Shown here in pieces: positions 6,261 to 20,267 of a DNA stretch of 28,958 nucleotides. A program made the translations under genes and the position numbers. Source of the stretch: a virus. The notes beneath the pieces are model-generated. The model made no database searches, was not told where the DNA came from, and saw nothing but the letters and a program-made list of their open reading frames with translations. Location: the IMG/VR virus record IMGVR_UViG_3300033141_000689, positions 1 to 28,958 of that record; one strand, 5' to 3'. How positions within the stretch are numbered: the first letter of the stretch is position 1; every line of letters starts with the position of its first letter.

Positions 6261-7157
6261 ATGAATAGATCACAGTTTAATAAAGCCGTGGTTCCTGGTT
6301 TGTTCTCCTTTATGTCCAGCTCTTTCCAAGAGACTAAACCCTATTGGAAACAGTTGGTGACGACTAAAACGTCAAGGAGATCCTACGAGGAAAACGCGTA
6401 TTACGCAGGCTTGGGACTCGTTCCTGAGAAACCAGAGGGTGAACCGATTAAGTACGACGATTTCATCCAGGGTCCTACCAAACGATGGGTGCATGTCACT
6501 CGCGCGCTTGGTGTAAGGATTACGGAAGAAATGATCGAAGACTCGTTGTATCCTGACATTCCTTCGGAAATGTCTGATATGACCAAGGAACTCGGTCGAT
6601 CGGTTCGTGAAACTCAAGAAATCCTTGTGCATGATATGTACAACGGTACTACTAAGACTGCGGCTGATGGAGTTGCTGTTTTCAGCACTTCTCATACAAA
6701 GCTTGGTGGTGGGACCTGGTCTAACTTGTTGTCTCCGGCTGCTGATTTGTCTACCGCTTCATTGCGTCAGGCGATCACTCAGATTGAGACTACAACAGAT
6801 GACAGGAACAAACAGCAGGTCATCAAGCCGAAGTATTTGCTTGTCGCTCCTGCGGGTGAATGGGGAGCACGTGAAATTCTGAATTCTGCATATGACCCTG
6901 AGAGCGCTAATAACGCTATCAATCCGTTGCAGAGCAGGAATCTTACGTTGATCGTCGATCCGTATTTAACGGACGAAGATTCTTGGTTTTTACTTCCAGA
7001 GTCTGGTAGGAACCCTATCATCACGTTTAATCGACGTAAGGTCAAGTTCGGACGTGACGGGGATTTCGAAACAGGTGATTCAAAGTTTAAGGTCTCGTTT
7101 AGACAATCTACCGAAGTGTCGTATCCAATGGGGTTACTGAAGAGCGCGGGAGCTTAA
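6261..7157 (+). CDS. Major capsid protein (HK97 fold, Mu gpT-like)
   Basis: The 298-residue protein has the features of Mu-type major head subunits: an N-terminal helix region, an extended-loop segment with Arg and Tyr, a LGRSVRETQE spine-helix region and the typical ending LLVAPAGEWGAREIL, followed by NLTLIVDPYLTDEDSWFLL. It follows scaffold and decoration genes with an AGGAG binding site. It should form the icosahedral shell. It ends at a natural C-terminus, so the inserted endonuclease gene downstream does not interrupt it. Confidence 0.93.
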   Translation: MNRSQFNKAVVPGLFSFMSSSFQETKPYWKQLVTTKTSRRSYEENAYYAGLGLVPEKPEGEPIKYDDFIQGPTKRWVHVTRALGVRITEEMIEDSLYPDIPSEMSDMTKELGRSVRETQEILVHDMYNGTTKTAADGVAVFSTSHTKLGGGTWSNLLSPAADLSTASLRQAITQIETTTDDRNKQQVIKPKYLLVAPAGEWGAREILNSAYDPESANNAINPLQSRNLTLIVDPYLTDEDSWFLLPESGRNPIITFNRRKVKFGRDGDFETGDSKFKVSFRQSTEVSYPMGLLKSAGA

Positions 7158-7183
7158 AGTAACTTCTTGATTCAATGTTCAAA

Positions 7184-7225
7184 CCATGTCATAATAATCT
7201 CTAAAAGGAGGTTATTATGACATGG
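7184..7225 (+). promoter_or_regulatory. Hairpin burying the RBS and start of the HNH gene
   Basis: The arms CCATGTCATAATAA (7184-7197) and TTATTATGACATGG (7212-7225) are a perfect 14-base inverted repeat. Pairing continues inward through CTC/GAG and two G-U pairs to an AAAA loop at 7203-7206, giving 19 stacked pairs. The Shine-Dalgarno GGAGG (7207-7211) and the start codon (7217-7219) are both fully paired. No U tract follows, so this is not an intrinsic terminator. The effect expected is repression of translation on long transcripts, as known for RBS-sequestering hairpins of T4 homing endonuclease genes such as I-TevI. Confidence 0.85.
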
Positions 7226-7618
7226 GATAAAGAAAAGTGGGACGCGTATAACAAAAAGTATTATGTTAAACGTAAGGAAGAATTAAAAGCAAGACGAAGA
7301 AAGTATTATCGTGAAAATGTAGAGAAGTGTCTCGAATGTTCTAAGAAAGCCAACCTATCCGAAGAAGCTAAAAAGCGAAAGGCGGATAGGCAAAGGGATT
7401 CTAGAAAAAGATTTCCTGAAAAACATAGGGCACGAAAGGTTCTTCAACGAGCTGTAAAGGCTGGAAAAATTAGTAAGACAGCATGTGAAATGTGTGGGAG
7501 CATAAATGTTGAGGCACATCATGCTGACTATTCTCTTCCCCTATCTGTGAGATGGCTGTGCAAGCATTGTCATAGAGTTGTGGAAGGGAAATCTATAACA
7601 GTGTCCCGAACGGGGTAA
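7217..7618 (+). CDS. HNH-type endonuclease (free-standing homing enzyme)
   Basis: The 133-residue protein has a very basic, helical N-terminus (Lys/Arg/Tyr repeats, residues 10-85) and a compact C-terminal HNH/zinc module. Cys90/Cys93 and Cys115/Cys118 form the metal-binding pairs, around His101-His102 and Asp104 in a VEAHHADY motif typical of phage HNH proteins. It sits between the capsid and a decoration gene without interrupting either, as free-standing homing endonucleases do. Its binding site and ATG lie inside a 19-bp hairpin, so translation is likely tightly limited. Target site is unknown. Confidence 0.85.
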   Translation: MTWDKEKWDAYNKKYYVKRKEELKARRRKYYRENVEKCLECSKKANLSEEAKKRKADRQRDSRKRFPEKHRARKVLQRAVKAGKISKTACEMCGSINVEAHHADYSLPLSVRWLCKHCHRVVEGKSITVSRTG

Positions 7619-7643
7619 GTCCCAGCGCAACTCTGGGAGGCAC
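7601..7643 (+). other. GC-rich multi-hairpin segment at HNH 3' end
   Basis: Around the HNH stop codon are two adjacent hairpins: CCC-GAAC-GGG (7605-7614) and TCCCAG / CTGGGA (7620-7625 and 7633-7638) with a 7-base loop. GTG (7601-7603) and CAC (7641-7643) could close them into a small three-way junction. There is no U tract. It may be an mRNA structure that limits read-through or shields the downstream binding site, or a remnant of the inserted element. Function is not known. Confidence 0.35.
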
Positions 7644-7659
7644 AGAAAGGTAGGATGAA

Positions 7660-8043
7660 ATGGGCTTAACAAATTTTCCTAATGGGATAAAAACAGACAA
7701 AGACGGCATTCTCTATGCAGAGATCGCCGACGTATCTGCAGCAGCAAGTTCTTGGTCAGCGGCATTGCCGTTTGACGTAGAGATTCTTGGCGCATATGTC
7801 ACTATCGACACGGCTATTACGGTAGCTGATGCAGATATTACATTTGAAATTGGAGGGACAGCAATCACTTCAATGTTAGCGACTATTGTGAACGGAACAT
7901 CAGCAGCGGGAGCAACGTACGCTGCGGTCGCTCCTACAGCAGAGTACACTTTGGCGGCAGGAACGCCGATTGAAATCATTACCGATGGCGGGTCAACAGA
8001 CGCGTCCAAAGGAACAGTAGGCATAGCTTATAAACGTGTTTAA
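7660..8043 (+). CDS. Small beta-rich virion protein (decoration-like)
   Basis: A 127-residue protein beginning MGLTNFPNGI, an N-terminal signature common to small phage head or fibre-associated proteins. The rest is hydrophobic and Thr/Ala/Ile-rich with predicted beta strands and ends GTVGIAYKRV. No Cys, signal peptide or membrane segment. The start follows AAAGGTAGG. Position after the capsid gene (with the HNH gene inserted between) suggests a second decoration or head-fibre protein. Confidence 0.75.
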   Translation: MGLTNFPNGIKTDKDGILYAEIADVSAAASSWSAALPFDVEILGAYVTIDTAITVADADITFEIGGTAITSMLATIVNGTSAAGATYAAVAPTAEYTLAAGTPIEIITDGGSTDASKGTVGIAYKRV

Positions 8044-19694: not shown

Positions 19695-20267
19695 ATGGTT
19701 GTAACGAAAGCAGAGTCGAATAAAAGATATTATTTGAAGAATAAAGAGGTAATAAAAGAATACCAGGAAGAATATAGGGTCAGGTATTCAGATAGACTGT
19801 CGAAATTATCTAAAGAGCATAGGCATACGTTTAACGGGTGGTTATCGGAAGTTTGGGGGTCTATGAGGAGACAGTGTAGGAAGAGGGGGCACGCTCTCCC
19901 TACATTTACAAAGAAAGAATTGGGCGAGTGGGTACAAAAACAAAACAGGTGTAGAACTCTTTTCGATACATGGAAGTGCGCAGGATATGGGACCGATTTT
20001 AGACCTAGCATAGATCGTCTGGACAACTTAAAGTCCTATTCGTTTGATAATGTTCAGCTGACTACTTGGTGCGAAAATAATGCGAATGGGAGAGAGTACA
20101 GAAGGGTACGTGTTATACGTACAGATGCTGAGACGGGTATCATGGTAGTGTACCAGTCTATAACAGAAGCGGCTAAGAAAACTCATGGCGGGAATCGTAG
20201 AGCTATAGGGGCGGCTATATTAGGCAAGACTAAACAATCTGCAGGATATAAATGGGAGAAGGTGTAA
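19695..20267 (+). CDS. HNH-type homing endonuclease
   Basis: The 190-residue protein has a basic helical N-terminus (MVVTKAESNKRYYLKNKEV) and a central module with SIDRLDN (105-111) and FDNVQLTTWCENN (117-129), the SIDRID...DNVxxxxxxxNN pattern of phage HNH enzymes. Its C-terminal part (YQSITEAAKKTHGGNRRAIG) is like the NUMOD/IENR1 DNA-binding repeats of homing enzymes. AAGGAG precedes the ATG. It lies between two tail genes without breaking either, so it is a free-standing insertion. Confidence 0.8.
   Translation: MVVTKAESNKRYYLKNKEVIKEYQEEYRVRYSDRLSKLSKEHRHTFNGWLSEVWGSMRRQCRKRGHALPTFTKKELGEWVQKQNRCRTLFDTWKCAGYGTDFRPSIDRLDNLKSYSFDNVQLTTWCENNANGREYRRVRVIRTDAETGIMVVYQSITEAAKKTHGGNRRAIGAAILGKTKQSAGYKWEKV

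Follow-up and report, generated by a model that had tools for sequence, protein, structure and literature searches.

The window analyzed here, the whole 28,958-nt stretch of DNA from an uncultivated phage, carries an HNH endonuclease gene right after the capsid gene, as had been originally predicted. All evidence on this gene and on the hairpin over its start site is computational. The features of the locus are the following.

6261 to 7157, plus strand: major capsid protein gene, the upstream neighbor and presumed source of read-through RNA (PF25209, 1.3e-17; annotated phage capsid homologues)
7167 to 7172, plus strand: −35-like hexamer TTGATT (TTGACG in the relative L001)
7184 to 7202, plus strand: left arm of the hairpin, nearly all of it missing from an RNA begun at the predicted transcription start near 7202
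7190 to 7195, plus strand: −10-like hexamer CATAAT inside the left arm, with an extended TG at 7187-7188 and a 17-nt spacer, conserved in L001
7203 to 7206, plus strand: AAAA loop, from sequence and folding
7207 to 7225, plus strand: right arm, with the Shine-Dalgarno (SD) sequence GGAGG (7207-7211), the ATG (7217-7219), and codons 2-3
7217 to 7618, plus strand: HNH endonuclease gene, 133 aa, a probable free-standing homing endonuclease (phrog_2340, 2.5e-22)
7597 to 7662, plus strand: structured leader before the next gene, holding the HNH stop codon and marking the downstream edge of the slot (8 of 12 pairs covary; model matches)

The only plausible start of the HNH gene is the ATG at 7217, as the frame extends just four codons upstream and none of these is a start; the next in-frame methionine is codon 92. 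The product is probably a homing-type endonuclease, judging from its phrog_2340 match, its conserved HNH-like residues, and a slot found in empty, occupied, and decayed states among relatives. Pfam gave no HNH match for it at E ≤ 0.1. The motifs CxxCG, HHxxY, and WLC with the following histidine are invariant across seven related proteins encoded in the same slot, and the genome collection contains seven distant relatives that are 38-54% identical to a portion of the protein. Downstream lies a small gene (7660-8043) with no family match, which we take, by its position only, to be decoration-like.

We surveyed the slot 3′ of the capsid stop codon in 43 capsid relatives. Most have no endonuclease gene there and show a G+C-rich hairpin, often followed by the conserved leader element. 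HNH genes of the same family occupy the slot in L010, L012 (where the gene is cut by the contig end), L018 (where it is frameshifted), L020 (the same as L001), L021, L023, L027, L041, and L060, and LAGLIDADG-like genes, recognized by a LIDGEG-type motif, occupy it in L030, L038, and L040. In L013, the slot is decayed: positions 1986-2110 hold an HNH remnant of 21 C-terminal codons, closest to the L001 type, adjoining a near-perfect palindrome of 19 bp that follows the capsid stop codon. Empty, occupied, and decayed slots form the pattern that a homing cycle would leave, and the gene may home. In other phages, relatives of this HNH gene (L121, L122, L107, and L098) are often preceded by a gene encoding a protein with an SSB-like acidic C-terminal tail (...IPF), suggesting a second favored slot.

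The leader element spans about 65 nt and consists of an outer stem (UGUC/GGCA), a conserved GUAAG, and a 6-bp hairpin capped by a T-loop-like 7-nt loop, followed by an SD. It stands directly 5′ of the post-capsid gene in the window and in L002-L005, L008-L011, L014-L023, L027, L146, L147, L150, L152, and L153, and is present even beside capsids that are only 26-39% identical. Its GGUAAG and UUCRANU sequences are reminiscent of tRNA D- and T-loops. It has no match in Rfam and is possibly a new phage RNA family.

At the HNH start, positions 7184-7202 pair with 7207-7225 through 17 Watson-Crick and 2 G-U pairs around the AAAA loop. Arms, loop, and pair count were all correct as first described, and the whole GGAGG and the ATG are indeed paired, both lying inside the right arm. 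The isolated hairpin has a predicted folding energy of −26.3 kcal/mol and is the longest short-range inverted repeat of the 29-kb window. Thermodynamic folding of 7150-7260 placed it far beyond chance (−31.1 versus −14.7 ± 2.9 for shuffled sequences; z = −5.6; 0/200 shuffles as good). Opening the region from the SD to the ATG is predicted to cost 22.4 kcal/mol, a value reached by none of 192 control genes taken from the window and related loci (4.5 ± 2.5); the remaining window genes that were measured cost 0.5-10.6. The SD is thus covered by a very stable predicted RNA structure, as in start-site hairpins of the I-TevI, mobE, and segB type. Rfam covariance models did not match the hairpin, even with the threshold relaxed to E ≤ 1, and nothing reached the gathering score in the window and ten relatives; the one sub-threshold match, of a microRNA model to the long L023 hairpin, is a chance one.

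Other functions were also considered for the hairpin. It does not resemble an intrinsic terminator, as the stem is followed by GATAAAG, with no U-run, and is absent from the list of terminator-like sites. The idea that it could respond to temperature found no support, because in the model the SD stays about 95-97% paired at 70-80 °C, so that even the upper end of this range frees only about 5% of it; a role as an RNA thermometer is therefore unlikely by this modeling. Simple translational coupling to the capsid gene also seems unlikely, because a ribosome terminating at 7157 would stop 27 nt short of the hairpin.

The same hairpin is found in one close relative, L001, which encodes a 61% identical protein in the same slot. 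Five pairs differ between the two phages: three are compensatory, one changes from C-G to U-G, and the outermost is broken. All four right-arm differences (4/4) lie opposite left-arm differences, and three pairs are restored by compensatory change in L001 despite altered codons 2-3. By our own arithmetic, four changes placed at random in the right arm would have a probability of 5/3876 of all facing the five changed left-arm positions. Pairing was lost when the arms were slid out of register, and a DNA pattern for the hairpin matched only the L001 contig. Since the column-shuffle control is weak with two sequences (64/500), we regard this covariation as good, not overwhelming, evidence. It fits the original prediction that a start-site hairpin like that of I-TevI would silence read-through RNA. 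The expectation that related phages would share the pairing holds for L001; more distantly related HNH genes of this slot lack the shared hairpin and have other predicted SD-blocking structures. The hairpin is a genuine, conserved, and well-placed regulatory element.

Could the hairpin serve mainly the capsid message, protecting its 3′ end or ending transcription in place of the G+C-rich hairpin of empty slots, with the block on the HNH gene as a by-product? Empty relatives do carry a hairpin directly after the capsid stop codon, with U-runs in L150 and L152. The stem in the window, however, is A+T-rich, begins 27 nt past the capsid stop codon, and has the non-terminator features described above, while in the window and L001 alike its right arm coincides exactly with SD and start codon. 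Moreover, start hairpins also occur in L105 and L122, where the gene does not follow a capsid gene. We consider a capsid-message role improbable.

A promoter-like site overlaps the left arm. The window has TTGATT-17-CATAAT and L001 has TTGACG-17-CATAAT, both with an extended TG and at equal distance to the start codon; boxes and spacing are kept while the spacer sequence has diverged. The match in the window is 9/12, a score that the region yields at chance level, and refers to a sigma70-like consensus that may not be that of the host; the weight of the site comes from its conservation, position, and enrichment. The predicted start near 7202 adjoins the loop, placing the SD near the 5′ end of the resulting RNA. 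With RNAs of successively later 5′ ends, the predicted opening cost fell from 21.4 (7184) to 11.9 (7190), 3.8 (7196), and 0.9 kcal/mol (7202 on), and it was 2.0 kcal/mol for an RNA starting 7 nt after the CATAAT box. In L001, the cost fell from 21-22 on the long RNA to 6 on the RNA from the promoter start. At the sequence level, a candidate promoter thus lies close to the gene, and its RNA would be unable to form the hairpin. An internal start removing the left arm, which had been raised in passing, proves central to our reading, with a sigma70-like −10 box in the left arm of both phages. Reading of 7158-7216 revealed no T4-type late promoter (TATAAATA), and sigma70-like boxes are found there instead.

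The combination of a closed start site, a promoter-like site, and relief by truncation was enriched among HNH-family genes with a strong SD (7/21, versus 1/214 controls; Fisher p = 1.2e-7), a p value that is indicative only because the thresholds were chosen after first looks and the genes belong to one family. For the window, the enrichment script credited most of the relief to an overlapping weaker box, TTCAAT-16-AATAAT, and not to CATAAT. The single positive control is itself a LAGLIDADG-like homing endonuclease gene, the one that occupies the slot in L030.

The boxes could instead be accidental, with the hairpin silencing read-through RNA and the start site opened by a nuclease of the RNase III or RNase E type that cuts within the stem or upstream of it, or hardly ever opened, which would keep the gene close to zero expression. 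A 9/12 promoter match is not rare alone, a nuclease could conceivably target a 19-bp stem, and the T4 segG and segB RNAs are processed by RNase E (PMC2988022). We nevertheless judge this reading unlikely, as boxes and spacing are kept in L001 though the spacer has diverged, and near-perfect promoters occur in same-slot relatives. Less likely still, and in our view very improbable, is that the inverted repeat is a DNA operator at which the endonuclease or another protein represses the promoter. The repeat does cover the −10 box, and I-TevI acts as its own repressor, by way of a promoter operator resembling its homing site (PMC2988022). Yet the G-U pairs at the SD (two in the window and three in L001) would be needless in a DNA palindrome, and the hairpin region has no similarity to the empty slots or other places in relatives, where a copy of an operator or homing site was sought and rejected. 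Cleavage, a capsid-message role, and a DNA operator are possible explanations that account for less than a promoter-driven switch.

From what was computed, namely the hairpin, its covariation in one relative, the boxes overlapping an arm, the truncation relief, and the family enrichment, we infer repression, promoter activity, and timing, and we think it probable that the HNH gene, inserted ahead of the next structural gene, is controlled by a two-state translational switch in which read-through RNA is closed and the gene's own sigma70-type promoter makes a short, open RNA. RNA reading in from the capsid region would carry both arms and bury the SD and AUG, so that little endonuclease would be made from it. 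The sigma70 −10 hexamer, forming part of the left arm, would direct a second, short RNA beginning at about 7202; lacking the left arm, this RNA could not form the hairpin and would expose the strong SD near its 5′ end. The endonuclease would then be supplied by the gene's own modest promoter rather than by the plentiful capsid messages, the short RNA probably being made when a host-type RNA polymerase reads the phage DNA. Given a host-type promoter and silenced RNA from a normally late region, production of the endonuclease would therefore be early, or else low and constant, rather than late.

Most described cases of homing endonucleases controlled by hairpins come from T4-like phages, where the late promoters are phage-specific. 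In T4, the long I-TevI RNA has a stable SD hairpin, and transcripts from a close promoter begin so far downstream that the hairpin cannot form (PMC2988022). The locus described here shares both the predicted SD hairpin on the long RNA and a nearby candidate promoter whose RNA could not form it. However, the T4 promoter is a phage late promoter and the silenced RNA is early or middle, whereas in the window the boxes are sigma70-like and the RNA that would be silenced is from the structural, normally late, region; I-TevI is also a GIY-YIG enzyme encoded in the td intron, unlike the free-standing HNH gene in the window. Aeromonas phage Aeh1 mobE, an HNH gene, and T4 segB are, like the gene here, free-standing endonuclease genes with an SD hairpin (PMC2988022, PMC3014915). 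These lie in nucleotide-reductase or tRNA regions of T4-like phages and use late promoters, in contrast to the post-capsid position, unrelated capsid, and host-type promoter here. The start-site hairpins of T4 e and soc are similar in that the long RNA is closed and the close-promoter RNA lacks the 5′ part of the structure, as described for gene e (PMC3014915), but these are not endonuclease genes and they have T4 late promoters. A T4-like off/on switch has apparently been rebuilt in the window with a host-type promoter.

Beyond positions 7184-7225, the part of most interest is the presence of several unrelated SD-blocking designs at one post-capsid site. Next to the promoter-in-hairpin design of the window and L001, a long hairpin in L018, L021, and L023 encloses promoter, SD, and start. 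The L023 promoter, TTGACA-17-TATAAT, is the full consensus (12/12) and that of L021 matches at 11/12, and in both the distance to the ATG is close to that in the window; the promoter of L018, whose gene is frameshifted, is degraded. The left arm of these long hairpins is predicted to be absent from the RNA of the enclosed promoter, and truncation gave clear relief in L021 (9.4 to 0.7 kcal/mol) and small relief in L023 (7.0 to about 5). In L010, L012, L027, L041, and L060, the loop of an upstream hairpin, constant in position, is complementary to the SD region, and L029 shows a similar complementarity one gene further on. Loop and SD change and stay complementary (CCGCAATT/AATTGCGG, CCGCAAGT/ACTTGCGG, CCACATG/CATGTGG, and GGTCTCCCCAGG/CCTGGGGAGGTT), which suggests a predicted SD pseudoknot, a class that was partly paired by hand and whose chance frequency per sequence ranges from 0/2000 (L041) to 410/2000 (L029). 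No conserved promoter of their own was seen in this class, and those of its members that were scanned gave no Rfam match. Family members away from capsid genes (L105 and L122) have start-covering hairpins too.

The window contains two further endonuclease genes. A second HNH gene (10068-9592, minus strand; HNH_3) is antisense to structural genes and has a near-consensus TTGACA-16-TATACT with a predicted start almost on the ATG, suggesting a transcript that may be leaderless. A third, endonuclease VII-like gene (19695-20267; phrog_1035) has an opening cost of 2.1 kcal/mol; its start site is open, and therefore not every endonuclease gene in the window is hidden.

We consider it possible, though short of probable, that the slot was invaded repeatedly by endonuclease genes, its HNH genes bearing at least three unrelated SD-blocking designs, that silence on the capsid message is a convergently satisfied condition for persisting beside highly expressed phage genes, and that host-type promoters lead to early instead of late endonuclease. 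The control logic of the T4-like phages appears here in an uncultivated phage whose capsid is unrelated and whose promoter is of host type, and related genes sharing the slot show other solutions. The arrangement has a simple searchable signature, an ATTATG start site facing a −10 box of CATAAT, and "must be quiet on the host operon" becomes a testable rule for the sites of selfish genes.
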